Shown: positions 12,297 to 60,636 of the stretch, in pieces
Layout: each line of letters starts with the position of its first letter
Position numbering within the stretch: position 1 is the stretch's first letter
Source of the DNA: Streptomyces profundus
GTDB taxonomy: Bacteria; Actinomycetota; Actinomycetes; Streptomycetales; Streptomycetaceae
DNA: 64,000 bases
Reading direction: 5' to 3'
Assembly: GCF_020740535.1 (NCBI RefSeq)
Contig: NZ_CP082362.1
Location: 3,470,501-3,534,500 of the forward strand
Notes under the pieces: generated by a model
What the model was told of the DNA's origin: nothing
Databases searched by the model: none
What the model saw: only the letters and a program-made list of their open reading frames with translations
Position numbers and translations under genes: made by a program

Positions 12297-13406
12297 TCAG
12301 CCGAGGGTGCGGCGGAGTCCGAGTCGCCCCCAGAGGAGGCTGACGGCGTAGGAGAAGGCGAGGGTCGCCAGCAGAAGACCCGGGAAGAACACGGCCGTCT
12401 CCAGCCCGGACCAGTCGGGCTCCAACAGGCGCACCACGATCTCCTCGATGAACAGGACATGCACCAGATAGGCGCCGAGTGCCGCGTTGGCCAGCTTGTT
12501 GACCAGGGGGCGGCGGTGCTCGGGAACCCGCACGCGGATCAGGAGCAGCACCACACAGACGCTCAACACCGCCACAAACGGGTGCGCGTTGGGGATCACA
12601 TAGTGGATGTCGACGTTGTACCAGACGATGCCGGCCACGGCGGCGAGGCCGGTGAGGGCCAGCGGCCAGCGGTACCGCGTGGCCACCGCGCTCGCGCTGG
12701 CCAGCAGGAACGCGCCGCCGACCGCGTAGATCACCGAGTAGGTGCCGAAGCCCCAGCCCACCCGTGGCATGGTCCACCCCGTGATCTCGTGGATCGTGGT
12801 CAACGCCGGGCCGAGACCGGCGAGGCCCATCAGCAGCAGGCCGAGGCCCCAGGGGCGGGCTCCCGCCCGGAGCAGCACCACAAAGCCCAGCATCACCACG
12901 ATGGGCAGGTAGGCGTACATGAACCACAGGTGGTAGGCCGGCTCCACCGAGTCGAAGAGGGAGTCGACGGCCAGGTCGGTCATCGGCTTCTCGTTGCGGT
13001 CGCGCAGCCAGGCCCAGAGAAGGTAGATGCCGGTCCAGACGAACATCGGCACGAGGTTGCGCCGCAGGCGCTGCCAGAGGCGCCCGCTCGTCCTGGGCGG
13101 TGCGCCGGAGATCACCGCCCAGCCGGCTATCGCGAAGAACACCGGCACCGCGAACGCCATGGTGGAGTCGCCGACGAAGCCGGTCCAGTAGACCGCCGCG
13201 CCCTCGGACTCGCGTTGGTTCACGGCGTGGATCAATGACGCGCTGACATGTGTCGTGATCACCGCGCAGGAGGCGACCAGCCGCAGCAGATCAATGTCGT
13301 GGCGGTGCTCTCGCGCGGGGGGTGGTGGCTCGGCGGTGGCGGCGGCCGAGGCCGTGCCCTGGCCGTTCTCGGAAACGGCGGCCGTGGGTGCGGTGTTGGT
13401 GGGCAT
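12297..13406 (-). CDS. Acyltransferase 3 (OafA/WecH-type) membrane protein
   Basis: A 369-residue polytopic protein with about ten membrane segments. After an Ala/Pro-rich cytoplasmic N-terminus comes DIDLLRLVASCAVITTHV, whose late His matches the catalytic region of the acyltransferase-3 family. VPVFFAIAGWAVISG and LWFMYAYLPIVVML are further conserved blocks. Such enzymes transfer acetyl or other acyl groups to surface polysaccharides or peptidoglycan. Near the two glycosyltransferase genes it could decorate the same polymer, but it is transcribed separately and towards the parS site. Confidence 0.85.
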   Translation of the reverse strand: MPTNTAPTAAVSENGQGTASAAATAEPPPPAREHRHDIDLLRLVASCAVITTHVSASLIHAVNQRESEGAAVYWTGFVGDSTMAFAVPVFFAIAGWAVISGAPPRTSGRLWQRLRRNLVPMFVWTGIYLLWAWLRDRNEKPMTDLAVDSLFDSVEPAYHLWFMYAYLPIVVMLGFVVLLRAGARPWGLGLLLMGLAGLGPALTTIHEITGWTMPRVGWGFGTYSVIYAVGGAFLLASASAVATRYRWPLALTGLAAVAGIVWYNVDIHYVIPNAHPFVAVLSVCVVLLLIRVRVPEHRRPLVNKLANAALGAYLVHVLFIEEIVVRLLEPDWSGLETAVFFPGLLLATLAFSYAVSLLWGRLGLRRTLG

Positions 13407-13730
13407 GGTTCCGATCGTCAGTCGTCAGAGGTGCCCACGGCTGCCGCGCCGTGCCAGCGATGGCCACCGGTCGCGGGGCACCGGGCCCCGACAGGATCCG
13501 GCGCCGGCACGGGTGGCGGATCGGGGCGCGCGCGATGTCGACGGTGGGCTCAGGCGGAGTGAAGATAGCCCGGGAGCGCCAACTCCTCGCCGCGGCCGAG
13601 TATCCGCTGGGTGAACGTCTGGCCAAGGCGGGGGAACCCGTGCTTCGGACGCGCCCTACCACGGTTGGGCCGCTGCCCGGGGGCCCGGGCGCCTCCGAGC
13701 CCTCGGGGGCGCCGGTGCGACGATGGCCGC
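13407..13730. other. Divergent intergenic region, no gene seen
   Basis: A 324-bp gap between the start of the acyltransferase gene and the start of the TauE-like transporter, transcribed away from each other. I see no reading frame with a Shine-Dalgarno and no clear promoter boxes. It must contain the two start regions. Confidence 0.4.
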
Positions 13731-14480
13731 ATGGTGATGGGTCTCGGCGGTGCGGAACTGGCGGTGCTGGCCGTCGCGGCCGTGCTGGTCGGGGTGGCCA
13801 AGACGGCGATCGGCGGGGTCGCCTCGATCACCGTGGCGCTCTTCGCCATGGCGCTGCCGGCGAAGGAGTCGAGCGGCGCGCTGCTGCCGCTGCTGATCGT
13901 CGGGGATCTGCTGGCGGTGGCGGCCTACCGTCGGCACGCGGACTGGAGCGCGCTGTTGCGCCTCTTCCCCTCGGTGGCGGCCGGGATCCTGGTGGGCGCC
14001 TGGTTTGTCTCCCGGGTCGACGACACGGTGATGCGGCGCACCATCGGCGGAGTGCTGCTGCTGGTGGTCGCGGCGCACCTGTGGCAGCGGAGACGAAAGG
14101 GCGAGCGCAACGGCAAGGGCGCCGCGCCAGCCCTGTTCTACGGCCTGCTGGCCGGGTTCACCACGATGGTGGCCAACGCGGGCGGCGCGGTGATGGCCGT
14201 CTATCTGCTGGCCGCCGGCTTCCCCATGCTGACCTTTCTGGGCACCGCGGCCTGGTTCTTCCTGATCGTGAACGTCTTCAAGGTCCCGTTCAGCGCGGGG
14301 CTCGGGCTGATCGGGCCCGAGTCCCTGACACTGAACGCGATCCTGCTGCCCGGGGTCTTCCTCGGCGCCTTCCTGGGCCGACGGTTGATCAGGGTGCTGC
14401 AACAGGGGGACCGGCAGCAGCTCTTCCAACGCCTGATCCTCGGCTTCACCGTGGTCTCCGCGCTCAACCTGCTTCGCTAG
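13731..14480 (+). CDS. TauE/SafE family anion permease
   Basis: A 249-residue membrane protein with seven or eight hydrophobic segments. Its two-fold repeat is characteristic of TauE/SafE: GVAKTAIGGVASITVALFAM in the first half and GLLAGFTTMVANAGGAVMAVY in the second. Members export sulfite or sulfoacetate or carry other small organosulfur anions; the substrate here is not predictable. The start is ATG 13731 (MVMGLGG), immediately before the first membrane helix; longer readings upstream are arginine-rich and unlikely. It converges on the ABC permease gene. Confidence 0.85.
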   Translation: MVMGLGGAELAVLAVAAVLVGVAKTAIGGVASITVALFAMALPAKESSGALLPLLIVGDLLAVAAYRRHADWSALLRLFPSVAAGILVGAWFVSRVDDTVMRRTIGGVLLLVVAAHLWQRRRKGERNGKGAAPALFYGLLAGFTTMVANAGGAVMAVYLLAAGFPMLTFLGTAAWFFLIVNVFKVPFSAGLGLIGPESLTLNAILLPGVFLGAFLGRRLIRVLQQGDRQQLFQRLILGFTVVSALNLLR

Positions 14481-53178: not shown

Positions 53179-53661
53179 TCACCTTTGACCTGGCGCGTAA
53201 TAGTCCGCCAGCATCTCGCTCGGCCAGGCCGGTTGGCGTACCTCGCCCCGGGGGCCCATTTCTTCGAACCACGGTTTGATGTCGAGGATCGGGGTGCCGT
53301 CCACCGCGTCCAGGTCCTCCACGTGGAGGTCCAGGCCGTCGACCTTGAGCAGTCGGCACCGTGAGACGCCCAGCCAGTTCAGGCGGCGCATGTTGCGGTG
53401 GGCGAAGATTCCGCCGGCCGGCCATGCCGGGTTGTTCCGTGGTCGGCGGGGCTCGGGGTGGAGGTCGGTCGGGTCGGTGAGGTGGAAGCGGAAGACGACC
53501 TCGATATGGGAGAAGTCGGCCAGGCCAACGGCCGCGCCCTCGTCGAACCGATCTCCGTCGATCCGCACGATGGCGCGCGTTCCGCCCCAGTAGTCGTCCG
53601 TCGGCTCCACGCGTCCTCCGACGACGTGTGCCACCGGCACGACCGTGAACTCCTCTGCCAT
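53179..53661 (-). CDS. TrmO-like (YaeB/UPF0066) SAM-dependent methyltransferase
   Basis: A 160-residue protein of the TrmO family, a beta-barrel that uses SAM. It shows VVPVAHVVGG at the N-terminus, LADFSHIEVVFRFH in the centre, RNNPAWPAGGIFAHRNMRR, and the terminal VDGTPILDIKPW. E. coli TrmO N6-methylates t6A37 of tRNA-Thr. This copy lacks the C-terminal domain of the E. coli enzyme, as many actinobacterial homologues do. GGAGGAG precedes the ATG. The gene reads away from the regulator gene in the same direction. Confidence 0.85.
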   Translation of the reverse strand: MAEEFTVVPVAHVVGGRVEPTDDYWGGTRAIVRIDGDRFDEGAAVGLADFSHIEVVFRFHLTDPTDLHPEPRRPRNNPAWPAGGIFAHRNMRRLNWLGVSRCRLLKVDGLDLHVEDLDAVDGTPILDIKPWFEEMGPRGEVRQPAWPSEMLADYYAPGQR

Positions 53662-53695: not shown

Positions 53696-55096
53696 TCAGA
53701 TTGAGGCGGATGTGGTCAGGTAGGCGGCGGCTCTGCGGTCAAGTTCGTTCACTGCCGTGATGCCGCGTCCTCGCAGGGGTGACAGCGCGGTGCGCATGTC
53801 GGCGGCGACGCGGCGGGTGCGGGCGGACTGGATGCCGTCCATGGTGTCCAGGGCGCGGTTCCAGGTGGCGCAGGCGTCGTCGATGGCGCCCTGGCGTGCC
53901 TGGACCGAGCCGAGGTCGCCCAGGGTCACCGCGTGGGTCCGGGTGAAGGACTCGGCTTTGCGGGTGCGGACGCTGCGGCGGAACTGGCTTAGGGCGCCCG
54001 GCAGATCGCCGGAGTGCCGCAGGGTATACGCCGTCTGGTGCGCCAGGCTGGCCTCGCCGAAGAAGAACACCCGCCCTGGCTCCGCCCCGTCCGGGGTCGT
54101 GGCCCGCAGGTCGTCCTCGGCGCGCAGCAGGGCGGTCGCGGCGGCGCGTTTCTGTCCGCTGGCCGCGAGGGCGCGGGCGTGCACGACGCCCAGGAGGGAG
54201 CGTTCGCGCGGGCTCGCGTCCCGGTAGCGCGCGCCGTCGACGGAGGCCGAGGCGAGGTTCAACGCCTGTCGCGGATGGCCGAGGTCCACGGCCTGGTGCG
54301 CCATCGCGCGCAGGACGTGGCCGGCCAGCGGGGCGTCGTCTGCCTCGGCGGCGAGGCTGACGGCCAGCGTGTAGTAGTGCTGGGCGGTGGCGTGTTCGGC
54401 ATTGTCGAAGGCCATCCAGCCGGACAGGTAGGCCAACTCGCCGGCGGCCGAGTACATCCCGCGTCGCACCGTCTCATCGGCGAACCGGCCCCGGAGGTAG
54501 GCGCCGACGTCCGAGGTGAGGTACTGGACCACGGTGGAACGAGCGTGGCCCCCGCCATGACGTTGGTCGGCCCGGGAGAAGACGGCGATCATGTCGCGTA
54601 CCGCCTCCAGGTCACGGCCGCCGACCCTGCGGGGCGCGGTCGGCTCGCGGCTGGCGGCGTGGGCGGTCTGCTGGGGCCACCACGAGGCACCCGGGACGGC
54701 GAGCGCGGCGACGGAGTAGGCGGCGGCCGAGAGGGCACGCCGGCGCACGATGTCCAAGTCCTGCCTCCCTAGTTCGATTAGGGCGTTCAGCGTATCCGCA
54801 TGCCATTCCAGGGCGGGTCGGAGTCGCGGCTGAAGTAGGCCGACTTCCTCGGGACCGACCGGGCGTCGCAGGTATCGGGAGAGCGCCTCGACCAGGTAGA
54901 GCGAGGTCGGTTCCTTCGGCTCGGCGCCGGCAACCCAGTGAGCGACGTTGGAACGGTTGGTGTGCAGCGCCTGCCCGGCCTCGGCGGCCACGGCACGAAC
55001 CTTGCTGGCCAGAGCCTCGTAGGTGACGCCCTCGGCCTTCAACAAGTCCCGAAGTCGCGTGTTGGGCGCACGGCCTTTCCGAGCTGGCTTCTCCAT
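53696..55096 (-). CDS. HTH-TPR transcriptional regulator
   Basis: A 466-residue protein. Residues about 8-70 resemble an XRE-type HTH (LRDLLKAEGVTYEALASKVRAV, then HTNRSNVAHWVAGAEP). A hydrophobic segment near 130-150 (RALSAAAYSVAALAVPG) is followed by TPR-like helices to the end. Such proteins are common in streptomycetes and often lie beside nucleotide or plasmid-transfer genes. AAGGGGG precedes ATG 55096. It diverges from the seven-gene operon at 55302 and is the likely regulator. Confidence 0.82.
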   Translation of the reverse strand: MEKPARKGRAPNTRLRDLLKAEGVTYEALASKVRAVAAEAGQALHTNRSNVAHWVAGAEPKEPTSLYLVEALSRYLRRPVGPEEVGLLQPRLRPALEWHADTLNALIELGRQDLDIVRRRALSAAAYSVAALAVPGASWWPQQTAHAASREPTAPRRVGGRDLEAVRDMIAVFSRADQRHGGGHARSTVVQYLTSDVGAYLRGRFADETVRRGMYSAAGELAYLSGWMAFDNAEHATAQHYYTLAVSLAAEADDAPLAGHVLRAMAHQAVDLGHPRQALNLASASVDGARYRDASPRERSLLGVVHARALAASGQKRAAATALLRAEDDLRATTPDGAEPGRVFFFGEASLAHQTAYTLRHSGDLPGALSQFRRSVRTRKAESFTRTHAVTLGDLGSVQARQGAIDDACATWNRALDTMDGIQSARTRRVAADMRTALSPLRGRGITAVNELDRRAAAYLTTSASI

Positions 55097-55149
55097 CACG
55101 CCCCCTTCGCACCGGACCCATTCCAAGGTAGCGAGGCACTGCCCGCACG

Positions 55150-55301: not shown

Positions 55302-55715
55302 ATGATCGCTACGCTCAGTCCCTCCAGACAACCACGTGTCACCCACACCCTGCCGGCCGTCGCCGCCAGCACCGCTGCCGCCCGGCGGATCGTCCGAGAA
55401 GCCCTGGCCGCCTGGCTGGTGGAGTCTCTCGCCGACGACGGCGCCCTGCTCGTCACCGAGTTGGTCAGCAACGCGGTGCGACACACCGGCTCCCGCTCCC
55501 TCCGGGTCACGGTGACCCGTCTCGACCCGACGTCCGTCCGCATCTCCGTGGTCGACAAGTCACCTGACCTGCCGATCCGGGTCTCCGCGAACGACGACTC
55601 CGTGCGCGGCCGTGGCCTGGCCCTGATCGAGGCCATCACCACCCGCTGGGGCGCCGACCCGTTGCGGTGGGGCAAGCGCGTCTGGGGCGAACTGACCGTC
55701 CACACCGGTCGATGA
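55302..55715 (+). CDS. RsbW-like anti-sigma-factor ATPase
   Basis: A 137-residue HATPase protein of the type common in Streptomyces. N-box: ELVSNAVRHT; G1 region: SVVDKSPDLP; G2: GRGLALIEAI. It lacks any sensor or phosphatase domain. Kinases of this type bind sigma factors or anti-sigma antagonists. It is the first gene of the operon next to the HTH-TPR regulator. The ATG is 55302; the region before it has no strong Shine-Dalgarno. Confidence 0.82.
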   Translation: MIATLSPSRQPRVTHTLPAVAASTAAARRIVREALAAWLVESLADDGALLVTELVSNAVRHTGSRSLRVTVTRLDPTSVRISVVDKSPDLPIRVSANDDSVRGRGLALIEAITTRWGADPLRWGKRVWGELTVHTGR

Positions 55716-55813
55716 GAGCGCGCCGTCCGGCAACCTCCGCTGGGCCGTCAACACCACACGCGGATCCGCGTCTTCCTCCTACCACCCGACCAGCCAAAAG
55801 ATCGGAGTATCCA

Positions 55814-56341
55814 ATGCCGCAGACCGTTTCTTATCCCAGGCAGCACATGGCCACCGAGCCCTCGCCGGCGAGCGAACGCGCCTTGGCAGTGCGGGTATCG
55901 CTGCTGGCGACCACGCGCGACAACCACGTGCTGATGGTCCGAGATCCCCATGTCGAGGGCGGCTGGCAGTTGCCGACGAGCATCGTCCCGCCCGGCGACT
56001 GTCCCGTTCGGACCGCGTGGCACCTGAGCGTTTCCCGGACCGGTTACTACCAGGAGGCCGCGTACGCGCTGGCCGTCAGTCTGGAACACGGCCCGTCCGG
56101 GCTCCCGATCGCGCTCGACTACATCCTCGACGGCGGCCAGTCGGACACCCCGCCCTGCGACGCGGTATCTCTCACGGACGGTGCTGGTTGGCGCCCCATG
56201 CGGGAGTTGCTGGAATCCCCGCCCGTGGTGCAGAACGCCCTGCTCGCCCTGGCCCACGGTGAGCGCGTCCCCGTCCTCGTCAACGGTGACCGACCGGCCG
56301 CCGACTGGCCGGAGCCGGACGCCGAGGACCAGTCCGCCTGA
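55814..56341 (+). CDS. Degenerate NUDIX-like protein
   Basis: A 175-residue protein with a NUDIX-like fold pattern: RVSLLATTRDNHVLMVRDP as the first strands, then GGWQLPTSIVPPGDCPVRTAWHLSVSRTGY in place of the NUDIX box (split here; positions about 58-88). The REUXEEXGU acidic residues needed for magnesium and catalysis are absent, so it probably binds a nucleotide without hydrolysing it, or is a scaffold. It is followed by a 56381-56402 hairpin and the Cys-rich gene. The operon context ties it to nucleotide chemistry. Confidence 0.65.
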   Translation: MPQTVSYPRQHMATEPSPASERALAVRVSLLATTRDNHVLMVRDPHVEGGWQLPTSIVPPGDCPVRTAWHLSVSRTGYYQEAAYALAVSLEHGPSGLPIALDYILDGGQSDTPPCDAVSLTDGAGWRPMRELLESPPVVQNALLALAHGERVPVLVNGDRPAADWPEPDAEDQSA

Positions 56342-56380
56342 TGCTGCTGGCGCTGTGCGCCGCACCGCTCGCGTTGTTGG

Positions 56381-56402
56381 CACCCCCTCCTTCCGGGGGG
56401 TG
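56381..56402 (+). promoter_or_regulatory. Intercistronic hairpin CACCCCC...GGGGGTG
   Basis: A 7-bp stem with an 8-nt loop lies in the 155-bp spacer between the NUDIX-like and Cys-rich genes. It may be an attenuator or processing site within the operon. Confidence 0.35.
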
Positions 56403-56496
56403 TCTTCACCGTCGCGTTGGTCCGGCGCATCGCTCAGGCCGACCGCGACACCGCGCAACCCCACCCCTTCAGCCCCCGCCCGGAAAGTTGATCGCA

Positions 56497-57147
56497 GTGC
56501 CCGAACTCCTCGTCTCCGAAGCCCTGATGACCTGGGGCCCGCGCCGTCTCCCGGTGCCCTACGCCGCGGCCTGGAGCGGCGAAGAACCCGACGGGCGAGG
56601 GGTGGCGATCCGCTCGGATCTGGCCGGCATCCGCTACCGGGACGAGACGCCCGCCGACCGCGACACCTTCGGCGTGCTGTGGGCCCGAGTTCGCGAAGCG
56701 CCCGGCGAGGGCCGCCCGAACTTCCCCGCCATGCACCCGGCACGCCAACGCCAGGTGCAGGCCGAGCGGTTGTGCCAGGTCTGCGGCAAGATCGCCAGCC
56801 ACACCCGGGACGGCTGGCTGTTCCTGATGAACGACGACGAGGACTGCTACGAGGGGGCGAGGACCACCAAGCCCCCGGTCTGCCTCCCCTGCGCCGCCCT
56901 CGCCGTCCGCCTCTGCCCGCACCTGACCAACCCGGTCGGAGTACGCTCCCGTCGCCCGAAGATCTGGGGCGTCTTCGGCACCCTCTTCGGCCCCACGCCG
57001 AACGCCCGGCTGAAGGTTCATGAGGACGACCACCTGCCCTACGGACACCGGGGCACGGAATGGTTCCTGGCCTCCCAGCTGATCGTGGAACTCAAGCGCT
57101 GCACCGTTGTGGACCTCGACGCGGAGCTCGCGGCGCTGATCGGTTAG
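56497..57147 (+). CDS. Cysteine-rich protein of unknown function
   Basis: A 216-residue protein. Two cysteine pairs, CQVCGKIA and CLPCAAL, with a further CPHL, suggest a zinc site in the middle of the protein. YGHRGTEWFLASQLIVELKRC forms the C-terminal helix. Related proteins appear next to nucleotide genes in streptomycete islands, as far as I recall. GTG 56497 with GGAAAG 9 nt upstream is chosen; ATG 56341 would give an extra 52 residues whose third codon positions are not GC-biased and is unlikely. No function known. Confidence 0.65.
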   Translation: MPELLVSEALMTWGPRRLPVPYAAAWSGEEPDGRGVAIRSDLAGIRYRDETPADRDTFGVLWARVREAPGEGRPNFPAMHPARQRQVQAERLCQVCGKIASHTRDGWLFLMNDDEDCYEGARTTKPPVCLPCAALAVRLCPHLTNPVGVRSRRPKIWGVFGTLFGPTPNARLKVHEDDHLPYGHRGTEWFLASQLIVELKRCTVVDLDAELAALIG

Positions 57148-57234
57148 CCGTGCCAGCCTTTCGGCTTGCCGAGCCTTGTCGCTCGGCTGGCCCGCGTCAT
57201 GAACGACCCCGATCACTCAACTCTCGGAGGTCTC

Positions 57235-58260
57235 ATGCACCAACCGCCCGCGTATGCCACCTTCGAGGACGCCTATCTTGATGTCCTCGCTCACATCGAC
57301 GGCGCGTTCGAGTACCGCAACGCGCCCCGGGGGAACAGCAGCCACGAGTGTCTTGGCCTGTCGTTCCGCCTCAGCGACCCACGTCAGCGCGTGCCCTATC
57401 TGGCGGCGCGGCGCGTCAACCCGGTCTTTCACTTCGCCGAGGCGCTCTGGTACCTGGCCGGCCGAGACGATCTGGCGATGATGGCGCACTATTCACCCCG
57501 GATGCGGGACTTCTCCCGCGACGGAGTCACCATCGGTTCGGCTTACGGGGCGCGCCTGTTCAACCCGGTGCCCGGCTCCGGGCAGTCCCAGTTCGACCGG
57601 GTTCTGGACCTGCTGCGGACGGAGGCCGACAGCAAGCGCGCGGTGCTGTCGGTCTTCCGCCCGGAGGAGTTGGCGGTGGCGAACAACCCGGACGTGTCGT
57701 GCGTCGTCGCCCTGCACCTCCTGGCCCGTGAGGGCCGGTTGCACATGGTCTGCTACATGCGGGCCAACGACGCCAACCGGGGCCTGATCGCCGACATCTT
57801 CTCCTTCACCCTCATCCAGGAGTTCGCCGCCAACCTGCTCGGCCTGGAACTGGGCAGCTACACCCATCACGTCGGCTCCCTCCACCTCGGCGAGCGCGAC
57901 TTACCCCAGGTGCAACGGGTGCTCGGCGAGGCGCGCACCCGCGACACGTCCCCCGTTCGGGCGTTCCCCTTCCTGGAGTTACCGCGCGAGACAACCTTCC
58001 AGACCATCGCCTCCGTGTTGGAGCACGAGCACCTGCTGCGCATCAACCAGGCCGCGTACGAGCCGGACGACATCGCCGCGTTGGGCCTGCCGCGCTACTG
58101 GCAGCAGGTTCTCCTGCTCTTCGAGGCCCACCGCCAGATCACCCACCACCCCGGCGAGCCGGTCACCGAGCCGGTTCTCGCCGCGCTGGACCCGGGGTTC
58201 CGGTGGCTGATGGCCCGCCGCTGGCCGCGCCGTATCGCCCCTGCCGGAGGCGGGCGGTGA
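57235..58260 (+). CDS. Thymidylate-synthase-family protein, predicted cytidylate hydroxymethylase
   Basis: A 341-residue ThyA-fold enzyme with catalytic Cys156 (PDVSC). EALWYL (from Glu69) and GSAYGARLF match ThyA blocks. In YMRANDANRGLIADIF, Asp187 replaces Asn177 of E. coli ThyA, the residue that selects uracil; Asp is found in cytidylate enzymes such as T4 dCMP hydroxymethylase. Lys134 and Ala177 replace the Arg and Ser seen in dNMP enzymes, exactly as Lys133 and Ala176 do in MilA, which prefers CMP. The predicted product is 5-hydroxymethyl-CMP (or dCMP). GGAGG sits 4 nt before ATG 57235. Codons 223 and 249 are TTA (57901, 57979). Confidence 0.8.
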   Translation: MHQPPAYATFEDAYLDVLAHIDGAFEYRNAPRGNSSHECLGLSFRLSDPRQRVPYLAARRVNPVFHFAEALWYLAGRDDLAMMAHYSPRMRDFSRDGVTIGSAYGARLFNPVPGSGQSQFDRVLDLLRTEADSKRAVLSVFRPEELAVANNPDVSCVVALHLLAREGRLHMVCYMRANDANRGLIADIFSFTLIQEFAANLLGLELGSYTHHVGSLHLGERDLPQVQRVLGEARTRDTSPVRAFPFLELPRETTFQTIASVLEHEHLLRINQAAYEPDDIAALGLPRYWQQVLLLFEAHRQITHHPGEPVTEPVLAALDPGFRWLMARRWPRRIAPAGGGR

Positions 58261-58838
58261 TCCCCGCCGCGCGGGCGCCGGAGTTCCGGGGCGGGGTACT
58301 CGGCGGGATCGACTGGGAGCGGTGGAGCGTGGTGCTCCTCAAGCCCGACTGTGTGCGCCTCGGCCTGGAAGACGCCGTGTTGGACCGGCTCGCCACGGTG
58401 GCCGACATCGCCGCCAGGACGACGCTCACGGTCGCCGACTGGCAGGTCTTCGTCCACTACTGGGATCTGCTGGTGGACGCGGACTGGTTCGACGTGGACG
58501 TGCCCGGCGCGCTGCGCACCATGTACGTGGGCCACCGGGTCACGGTCGCGCTCGCCCACGGACCGGCCGGAATCGCCGTGACGCTGCGTGGGCTGCTGGG
58601 GCACTTCGACCCGTCCCAGGCCGCCGCCGGCACCATCCGCGGTGATCTCGGGACCGACAGCCTGGCCACCGCCCGTGCCGAGGGCCGACTGGTGCACAAC
58701 CTCGTGCACACCAGCGACGACCCCGCCGCCGCGCGCCGCGACTTCGGCACCTGGTACGGCGCCCACCAACACCAACTCCTCCACCCCACCCGCCCCGACC
58801 TGCCGCACGCCCGCGACGCCAGGAGGCCCCAGCCATGA
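58257..58838 (+). CDS. Nucleoside-diphosphate-kinase-like protein
   Basis: A 193-residue protein with NDK features: SVVLLKPDCVRLGLEDAVLDRL (Lys of the KPDxV block), GTIRGDLGTDS, and NLVHTSDDPAAARRDFGTWYG, in which His is the phosphate-carrying residue. It is longer than the 137-residue housekeeping Ndk at both ends, with an insertion in the middle. It may phosphorylate the modified nucleotide to the triphosphate. GTG 58257 overlaps the previous stop (GTGA). Confidence 0.72.
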   Translation: MIPAARAPEFRGGVLGGIDWERWSVVLLKPDCVRLGLEDAVLDRLATVADIAARTTLTVADWQVFVHYWDLLVDADWFDVDVPGALRTMYVGHRVTVALAHGPAGIAVTLRGLLGHFDPSQAAAGTIRGDLGTDSLATARAEGRLVHNLVHTSDDPAAARRDFGTWYGAHQHQLLHPTRPDLPHARDARRPQP

Positions 58839-60031
58839 ACACGAACCACCCCACCGCCGGCCACCGCCGGACCCTGCCCTTACTCAGCCAGCGCGAAATC
58901 GCCGCGCTGAAACCCGAGTTGGCCGAGGTGATCGAGTACCGCAAGTCCGGCCTCTCCCTCAACCACATCGTCGGCTGCCCGCTGGACTGCGGCTACTGCG
59001 TCCGCCACCTCTTCGGCAACTACGCCATGAAGACTCCTCGGGCGCTGATGAGCGACGAGGAGGCTGTGGCCCAACTCGTCGGCCACCGCTACTTCCAGCC
59101 CCACCGCACCCCGGTCCAGATCTTCAACCGCGCGACCGACCCGATGCTCCCGCCCGTCAAACCGCACACCTTCAACGTCCTGCGCCTCCTCGACCAACAA
59201 GGCCTGACCAACCACGTCCTGGTCATCACCCGCTGGCGCGTCGAACCCGAGGACTGCGCGGTGCTCAACTCCCTCCGCAACATCACGTTGACCGTCCTGG
59301 TCACCCACTCGGGTATCGACGCCCCCAGGATCGAGCCGGCCGACTCCCGCATCGCCGCCGCCAGCCTGCGCACCCTCCACGCCCACGCGCGCCGCTACCG
59401 CACCGTCCTGTACTGGCGCCCCATCGTCCCCGGCCTCAACGACACCCCCACCCACCTCGCCCGCGCCCGCGAACTCGCCGAACACGCCCACGCCACCGTC
59501 TTCACCGGCCTGTTCTACCGAGACGAGATCGCCGCCTACTACCAGGCCAACGGCCTACCCAGCCCCTACGAGGACACCGCCCGCCGCAAGATCCTCCCCG
59601 AGGACACCGAAGACCGCATCCTGGCCGCCTTCCACCGCGCCGGCGACCCCAACACCCGCTACGGGGCGCTCTTCCGCAAGACCTCCTGCGCCGTTGCGTA
59701 CGCCCACGGCCGAGCCGACTACAACGGCCACTACGGCATCCGCGAACTCTGCGACATCTGCCCCCGCGCCCAACTCAACCTCTGCGCCGACGCCTGGCAC
59801 ACCCCCGACCCGGCCGAGGTCACCGAACAGGCCCGCGCCCTCGGCGCCACCGGCGACGTCGAGGTCACCGAGTGGGCCATCATCGTGGAAGGCTTGGACG
59901 AACCACCGCGCTACCACCTGCAACACGCCTACGGCTACCAGTGCCACGACCGCGCCAAGCCACACCACCACCGACGCCACGGCCGCGCCGACATCGGCTG
60001 GCCGACCCCCGCCCGGGACGGGACACCATGA
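58835..60031 (+). CDS. Radical SAM enzyme of the SPL-like (COG1533) type
   Basis: A 398-residue protein with the iron-sulfur motif CX3CX2C at Cys48, Cys52 and Cys55 (VGCPLDCGYCVRHLF). RATDPMLPPVKPHTFNVLRLL and VLVITRWRVEPEDCAVLN follow the COG1533 fold. A later CDICPRAQLNLC cluster could hold another cluster or zinc. It may act on the hydroxymethylated pyrimidine or on DNA lesions. Codon 16 is TTA (58880-58882). It overlaps both neighbours by 4 nt (ATGA). Confidence 0.8.
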   Translation: MNTNHPTAGHRRTLPLLSQREIAALKPELAEVIEYRKSGLSLNHIVGCPLDCGYCVRHLFGNYAMKTPRALMSDEEAVAQLVGHRYFQPHRTPVQIFNRATDPMLPPVKPHTFNVLRLLDQQGLTNHVLVITRWRVEPEDCAVLNSLRNITLTVLVTHSGIDAPRIEPADSRIAAASLRTLHAHARRYRTVLYWRPIVPGLNDTPTHLARARELAEHAHATVFTGLFYRDEIAAYYQANGLPSPYEDTARRKILPEDTEDRILAAFHRAGDPNTRYGALFRKTSCAVAYAHGRADYNGHYGIRELCDICPRAQLNLCADAWHTPDPAEVTEQARALGATGDVEVTEWAIIVEGLDEPPRYHLQHAYGYQCHDRAKPHHHRRHGRADIGWPTPARDGTP

Positions 60032-60636
60032 ACGACTTCACCACCTGGCCACCGCTGTTCGTCGTGGACGTCGAGGGCAACGGCGCCAACCCACCCGACC
60101 TCGTCGAAGTCGCCGCCCTCCCCATCCGCGATGGCCAACCCGACAGCACCACCGCAGGACACTGGCTCATCCAACCGCCCAACCCCGTCACCCCGTTCGC
60201 CGCCCGCGTCCACGGACTCACCACCCAGCAGCTCGCCGACCACCCCAGGTGGGAAACGGTCGCGCCGCAGGTGCACGGGCTGCTCAGCGAGGCATGGATC
60301 TGCGCCCACAACGCCCACGTCGACTACCGGGTACTCTCCCGCCACCTCCCCGACTGGCGGCCGGCCGGCGTCATCGACACCCTCCGCCTCGCCCGCGCCA
60401 CCTACCCCGACGGACCCCGCCACACCCTCGACGCCCTCATCACCCACACCGGCATCGACCTCACCCACGCGCCCGCTCAAAGACACCGCGCCACCTACGA
60501 CGCCTACGCCACCGCCCACCTGCTCCTCACCATGGCCACCCACTACGACGACTGGGACGCACTGCGCGCCACCGCCGTGCCCCCCGGCCTCCCGGGGGAC
60601 CGACAGCCAACCGAAGACGCCCCCGGACTGTGGTGA
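60028..60636 (+). CDS. DnaQ-like 3'-5' exonuclease (DEDDh)
   Basis: A 202-residue exonuclease domain protein. Exo I: FVVDVEGNG (Asp14, Glu16); Exo II: AHNAHVDYRVLSRHL; Exo III: HRATYDAYATAHLL with the catalytic His and Asp. It hydrolyses DNA or RNA 3' ends, possibly removing modified or damaged nucleotides. It is the last gene of the operon, translated from ATG 60028 that overlaps the radical SAM stop. Confidence 0.82.
   Translation: MNDFTTWPPLFVVDVEGNGANPPDLVEVAALPIRDGQPDSTTAGHWLIQPPNPVTPFAARVHGLTTQQLADHPRWETVAPQVHGLLSEAWICAHNAHVDYRVLSRHLPDWRPAGVIDTLRLARATYPDGPRHTLDALITHTGIDLTHAPAQRHRATYDAYATAHLLLTMATHYDDWDALRATAVPPGLPGDRQPTEDAPGLW

Follow-up and report, generated by a model that had tools for sequence, protein, structure and literature searches.

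Gene Organization of the Core Unit

The subject of this study is a cassette of four genes, g4 to g7, in the genome of Streptomyces profundus. It lies in a stretch of 64,000 nucleotides, here called the window (C1:3470501-3534500 of a single-contig 7.65 Mb genome; coordinates without a contig prefix are positions in the window or in the locus named), where seven open reading frames (ORFs; g1 to g7) follow each other on the plus strand at 55302-60636. The initial annotation described all seven as one operon that may make and handle a modified pyrimidine nucleotide. The common direction was borne out, and g4 to g7 form a tight unit (57235-60636) in which, as had been noticed and as can be read from the letters themselves, four-base overlaps join all three pairs of neighbors: GTGA between g4 and g5 (58257-58260), ATGA between g5 and g6 (58835-58838), and ATGA between g6 and g7 (60028-60031). 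The first three genes, in contrast, are separated by gaps (about 98 bases between g1 and g2, 155 between g2 and g3, and 87 between g3 and g4) and vary among relatives, so that a single operon of all seven is no more than a possibility. The gene set, its conservation, the domain assignments, the signature residues and the purifying selection described below are computed results.

Features of the Core Enzymes

The first core gene, g4 (57235..58260, plus strand; 341 amino acids), encodes a homolog of MilA-type cytidine monophosphate (CMP) 5-hydroxymethylases. It matches PF00303 at E 6e-22 and, among PDB sequences, CMP 5-hydroxymethylases 5jnh (E 5e-85) and 5b6d (3e-84), with thymidylate synthases following at E 1.6e-15 or weaker. 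Canonical synthesis of deoxythymidine monophosphate was rejected as its function, because its resemblance to MilA far exceeds that to thymidylate synthases and because the genome also encodes ThyX. Since ThyX is encoded at C1:5570560-5571198 and g4 is the only PF00303 match in the genome, thymidylate synthesis presumably proceeds via ThyX. In MilA numbering, g4 retains K133, A176, D186, C155, H216, and E68, and carries Gly in place of Tyr218. The catalytic Cys155 and Glu68 of the thymidylate synthase family, as well as Lys133 and Ala176, are present in 121 of 121 aligned g4-family rows, and Asp186 in 120 of 121. According to the account of MilA in PMC5175136, Lys133 and Ala176 recognize the ribose, Asp186 recognizes the cytosine, and Tyr218 touches the ribose 2'-hydroxyl. 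Tyr218 occurs in none of the 121 rows, being replaced by Gly, Asn, Ala, Cys, or Arg; therefore, g4 is named here MilA-like, with an altered sugar pocket, and not a proven CMP hydroxymethylase. The earlier prediction of a CMP hydroxymethylase thus stands in that the signature residues fit CMP over deoxy-CMP (dCMP), and is weakened at Tyr218. The enzyme shares its fold, its catalytic residues, and the K133/A176/D186 signature for CMP with MilA and BcmA, of mildiomycin and bacimethrin biosynthesis, but differs from them at Tyr218, and no MilB-type N-glycosidase was found beside it.

The product of g5 (58257..58838, plus strand; 193 amino acids) is a nucleoside diphosphate kinase (NDK)-like protein, as had been proposed: it matches PF00334 at 2.5e-12, and the NDK catalytic residues (Lys, Arg, Asn, and His) are kept in g5 and in 56 of the 56 copies examined. 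A second, separate NDK is encoded elsewhere in the genome (C1:4851697-4852095).

The third enzyme, g6 (58835..60031, plus strand; 398 amino acids), was called a radical S-adenosylmethionine (SAM) enzyme similar to spore photoproduct lyase, and the radical SAM part of this call is upheld by its CxxxCxxC motif, in which Cys48, Cys52, and Cys55 are invariant in the family, together with its predicted fold. The match to PF04055 is weak (E 0.02, under the Pfam cut-off), and no PDB sequence matched at E ≤ 5. Spore photoproduct lyase is the nearest solved structure to the predicted fold, but g6 is only about 10% identical to it and keeps different gene company. Many g6 relatives carry the source name 'DNA repair photolyase'. 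PADLOC includes viperin models, and neither g6 nor either of two relatives matched any of its profiles at E ≤ 1.

The last gene, g7 (60028..60636, plus strand; 202 amino acids), encodes a DnaQ-like DEDDh 3'-5' exonuclease (PF00929, 6e-18), in agreement with the initial annotation. Its best PDB relative is exodeoxyribonuclease X (1.7e-16), and the five catalytic residues (Asp, Glu, Asp, His, and Asp) are all there. Among 61 g7-family rows, 40 have all five residues, 16 have Glu as the third acid, and 5 are partial.

Conservation, Distribution, and Composition of the Cassette

Nine named loci share the four core genes in one conserved order. They come from Streptomyces sedi and from seven further species or strains; S. 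violaceusniger contributes two of them, and in both the exonuclease frame is interrupted. Among these nine, the closest copy is that of S. sedi, whose g4 is 96% identical. The ratios of nonsynonymous to synonymous substitution rates (dN/dS) between it and the window copy are 0.19 for g4, 0.39 for g5, 0.27 for g6, and 0.25 for g7; in this comparison, purifying selection acts on all four.

In the genus, 33 of 392 genomes gave a match to the radical SAM gene at E ≤ 1e-5: 21 genomes have a near full-length relative of at least 63% identity, 9 have nothing but fragments, and 3 have distant proteins (28-35% identity). At E ≤ 1e-30, one of 396 genomes across the phylum had a match, which was the window's own; the gene is therefore patchily distributed. 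Plasmid records gave 36 radical SAM matches, 18 of them in Streptomyces. The module occurs in actinobacteria and alphaproteobacteria and partly in a cyanobacterium, and radical SAM relatives are also named from Bacteroidetes, Ignavibacteriae, and Paenibacillus. In IMG/VR, nine cassette loci were found, all nine with further cassette genes; phage genes were not looked for there. An origin in lytic phages was rejected, as g6 matched 0 of 50,697 phage records.

Composition was scored over 51 non-redundant radical SAM loci after near-duplicates (L079, L088, L089, and L099) were dropped; in one scored locus, L080 from Nocardia, the radical SAM frame is broken by an internal stop. The exonuclease gene adjoins the radical SAM gene in 50 of the 51 loci, and some kinase gene is present in 50. 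The hydroxymethylase and NDK genes are jointly present in 35 loci and jointly missing in 16, an AAA_28 kinase gene occurs in 39, and an aldo/keto reductase gene in 31. The commonest form (20/51) combines hydroxymethylase, NDK, radical SAM enzyme, exonuclease, AAA_28 kinase, reductase, and a NUDIX-like gene, and six loci (the window, L002, L003, L005, L046, and L104) have the four core genes alone. A second Streptomyces subfamily consists of radical SAM, exonuclease, reductase, and thymidylate-kinase-like genes in three of four loci, with L060 lacking the reductase. The alphaproteobacterial form comprises radical SAM enzyme, exonuclease, and AAA_28 kinase, and an HD protein is present, by annotation, in four scored alphaproteobacterial loci; in L082, the fifth locus scored for HD, the score reflects a dGTPase gene that is separate from this protein. 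The initial annotation had made joint conservation elsewhere the test of its proposal. That test was run, the co-occurrence held, and chance clustering of the cassette genes was rejected by their co-occurrence across the 51 loci. The cassette is real, selected, and mobile-looking, and its enzymes fit together in a coherent nucleotide scheme.

Several variants were also observed. Two Streptomyces genomes, G344 (L048 and L049) and G384 (L042 and L052), each carry a pair of cassettes that share a contig but are separated by megabases, and in L048 the AAA_28 kinase matches in pieces only. The distant radical SAM relatives in L072 and L073 (26-35% identity) have no adjacent exonuclease of the g7 type and may represent a sister family with different surroundings. 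Searched against PDB sequences, the AAA_28 kinase gave nothing below E 0.64. The HD protein of L078 (12304-13740) is weakly similar to the PADLOC dGTPase profile (4.5e-6) and would add nucleotide depletion. One plasmid locus, L088, has at 13159-14043 a NUDIX-like companion with a MazG-like C-terminal part (PF03819, E 0.0033, under the cut-off).

Companion and Neighboring Genes

The genes g1 to g3 are variable companions of the core. An anti-sigma-like HATPase and probable regulator is encoded by g1 (55302..55715, plus strand; PF13581, HATPase_c_2, 1.2e-10), which confirms the earlier description, and its family occurs in 14 of 34 actinobacterial loci. No function is assigned to g2 (55814..56341, plus strand). 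It had been regarded as a degenerate NUDIX protein, an identification that is not sustained: no profile from Pfam, NCBIfam, PADLOC, or PHROG matched at E ≤ 1. Homology of g2 to the NUDIX-like gene located 3' of the reductase gene in relatives was likewise rejected, because BLASTP found no similarity. The several-Cys protein g3 (56497..57147, plus strand), also of unassigned function, matches phrog_30088 at 9e-35 and no Pfam family at E ≤ 1; its family was found in 7 of the 34 loci by clustering of called genes, and in more by tblastn.

The two genes reported on the opposite strand are both present. An NsdA-family TPR regulator (53696..55126, minus strand; NF053720, 2.3e-121) is divergent from g1, and such a regulator lies on the opposite strand in 11 of the 34 actinobacterial loci. 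NsdA-type regulators are tied to antibiotic production. The TrmO-like methyltransferase gene (53179..53661, minus strand; PF01980, 5.8e-21) is an occasional neighbor, which also adjoins the cassette in L003, L043, and the decayed L070, and by annotation in L085.

A Proposed Pathway to an Unusual Cytidine Nucleotide

The cassette belongs with known kinds of systems, namely MilA-based nucleoside pathways and radical SAM-made nucleotide analogs. We tentatively prefer the reading, which we hold at somewhat less than probable, that the core is an intracellular pathway to an unusual cytidine nucleotide that is kept phosphorylated, with a triphosphate that poisons and an exonuclease that clears host 3' ends. 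The substrate, the order of steps, the product, the role of the exonuclease, and the biological target are what we infer from the gene set. The MilA-like g4 would hydroxymethylate CMP, or a sugar-altered CMP, at C5, and the radical SAM enzyme g6 would alter the sugar or the base. Kinases would then raise the nucleotide to the triphosphate, by the NDK g5 in the window version and by NDK together with a NadR/thymidylate-kinase-fold kinase in the longer versions, in which the aldo/keto reductase may also act. With phages, plasmids, or rivals as targets, the triphosphate might serve as a poison or be mis-incorporated, and g7, as a DEDDh exonuclease, could clear the modified residue from the host's own 3' ends. 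The modified-pyrimidine interpretation of the initial annotation gains from the co-occurrence of the genes and the near-constant kinase, with mixed results on a defense role.

Known systems offer partial parallels. Prokaryotic viperins are likewise radical SAM enzymes, and viperin operons have kinase partners; the pyrimidine nucleotide substrate proposed for the cassette enzyme would be a further likeness. The 4'-thiothymidine cluster thmA-C of Photorhabdus is described as comprising a radical SAM enzyme, a nucleoside kinase, and a protective hydrolase, with thmC giving resistance (PMC12691670). By that description its logic is similar to that of the cassette, but it protects by a triphosphatase where the cassette has an exonuclease, and no hydroxymethylase is named among thmA-C. 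In another system, an exonuclease has been shown to be able to remove a radical SAM-made cytidine analog from RNA (PMC9415739).

Decayed copies bear on the role of the exonuclease. The radical SAM gene is broken in ten Streptomyces copies (L062-L071), of which seven keep an exonuclease frame that is open across 92% or more of the query, one has a disrupted exonuclease gene, and two have none; two of the retained exonucleases have dN/dS values of 0.38 and 0.40 against the window g7. An exonuclease that outlasts the radical SAM gene is the trace expected of a protective exonuclease, and this is weak evidence for that role. The survey started from the radical SAM gene and so gives a biased view, in which the reverse case was still detectable.

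A poison or defense use of the nucleotide, which we infer as well, can be compared with the genomic surroundings. Around six alphaproteobacterial plasmid copies, 22 of 90 neighbors carry defense or toxin-antitoxin labels, compared with 6 of 252 controls (Fisher test), where the cassette genes were left out and the controls were distant stretches of the same plasmids; six Streptomyces plasmid loci were left out of this count. Near two of the Streptomyces plasmid loci, L084 and L087, there is a MazE7/Doc pair. A system already known to PADLOC was rejected, as all matches are weak other than those to generic DEDDh (3e-30 and 8e-28), to the candidate family PDC-M51B, which matches the thymidylate-kinase-like protein at 3.6e-11, and to dGTPase for the HD protein.

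Several observations weigh against the proposed pathway. Around 14 Streptomyces cassettes no PADLOC enrichment was found at E ≤ 1e-10, with 8 family matches among 120 neighbor proteins vs. 23 among 125 controls (125 of 182 control proteins, about 200 kb away). The plasmid keywords were picked after the loci had been seen, the labeled genes were tallied by hand, and the test took 6 of 10 non-Streptomyces loci, L075, L077, L079, and L080 having no control and being uncounted. The window version is without the AAA_28 kinase and the reductase found in many Streptomyces copies, and a search of the window genome, run without a positive control, found no AAA_28 homolog. No exonuclease gene adjoins the radical SAM gene in Nostoc L077, and no kinase gene was found in L055. 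An intact radical SAM gene with a broken exonuclease gene was found in L006 and L007 only, both from one assembly. The plasmid enrichment and the Streptomyces null together mean that a defense location is seen for the alphaproteobacterial copies only, which leaves a mixed picture for the suggested phage defense.

As for L006 and L007, they lie on different contigs of S. violaceusniger NBRC 13459, one of them about 75 kb or less from a contig end, and their interrupted exonuclease frames may be decay or assembly error.

Alternative Explanations

The cassette could instead be a cluster for a released nucleoside, in which the cytidine product loses its phosphates and leaves the cell as an antibiotic, the kinases act on intermediates, and self-resistance comes from the exonuclease. 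The combination of radical SAM enzyme, kinase, and protective hydrolase is also that of the thmA-C cluster, as described in PMC12691670. A gene of the HD_3/YfbR-like, 5'-nucleotidase type some 7 kb upstream in 6 of the 34 actinobacterial loci, a methyltransferase gene in 6 of the 34, the link of NsdA-type regulators to antibiotic production, the position of the Streptomyces copies outside defense islands, and genes of the type for ribosomally synthesized and post-translationally modified peptides near one plasmid copy (L086) also speak for it. However, no transporter was recognized in the 20 families that recur in 4 or more of the 34 loci, of which 18 could be identified, defense genes surround the alphaproteobacterial copies, and the kinase genes are near-constant. 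On balance a released product seems rather unlikely.

A role in the modification or repair of nucleic acids is decidedly less probable. Here the enzyme with the spore photoproduct lyase fold would act on DNA or RNA, perhaps on residues derived from hydroxymethyl-CTP, and the exonuclease would trim ends. The nearest solved fold is indeed a DNA repair enzyme, and the photolyase name given to many relatives by a source points the same way. Against this, the K133/A176 signature indicates ribo-CMP and not dCMP, the kinase companions fit a free nucleotide, and structural resemblance at about 10% identity does not establish a function.

Bacimethrin biosynthesis is very improbable. The label comes from the legend of Fig. 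3B in PMC12345177 (2025), which presents, for S. albus DSM 41398, a known producer according to that source, a 'gene cluster for bacimethrin biosynthesis' with the order ABC, HP, TS, nucleoside phosphate kinase, radical SAM domain protein, DNA polymerase, HP, and oxidoreductase. By the order and names of the gene products alone, this cluster seems to correspond to the longer version of the cassette; it has HP and oxidoreductase genes, which the window version is without. The earlier remark that no described system of this composition was known must therefore be corrected, and searches of openly licensed PMC papers (subscription papers and preprints lie outside this scope) gave no paper on the system except this drawing. 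The shared order and the MilA-like g4 favor bacimethrin, but its route is described as requiring a hydroxymethyl-CMP (hmCMP) N-glycosidase as the next enzyme (PMC4081090). When 67 stretches, some of them decayed or duplicate, were searched with MilB, none had a same-strand match at E ≤ 1, and there was one antisense match at E 0.025. PF05014, which we take to be the family of this N-glycosidase (MilB), had no match in the window genome and was found in 3 of 12 cassette genomes searched, each time more than 1 Mb from the cassette. Because the N-glycosidase was not found in the 67 stretches and PF05014 is absent or distant, the label is unlikely to apply to the cassette. The same legend also presents Microcystis 'bacimethrin' clusters, in which a TS-like gene is paired with a thymidylate kinase, a parallel pairing.

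Significance of the Cassette

A more interesting but less likely extension of the proposed intracellular pathway, which we regard as unlikely, is that the radical SAM-exonuclease-kinase module represents a new class of nucleotide immunity, in which a sugar-altered pyrimidine nucleotide poisons foreign polymerases and the module brings its own proofreading antidote. The actinobacterial MilA-like enzyme without Tyr218 would then act on the sugar-altered CMP and yield an undescribed doubly modified nucleotide. If the proposed pathway is right, the published attribution of this gene order to bacimethrin would be corrected, and the product would offer a new starting point for polymerase inhibitors. 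The cassette would then provide a radical SAM route, besides viperin, to an intracellular nucleotide analog, with an exonuclease antidote built in.

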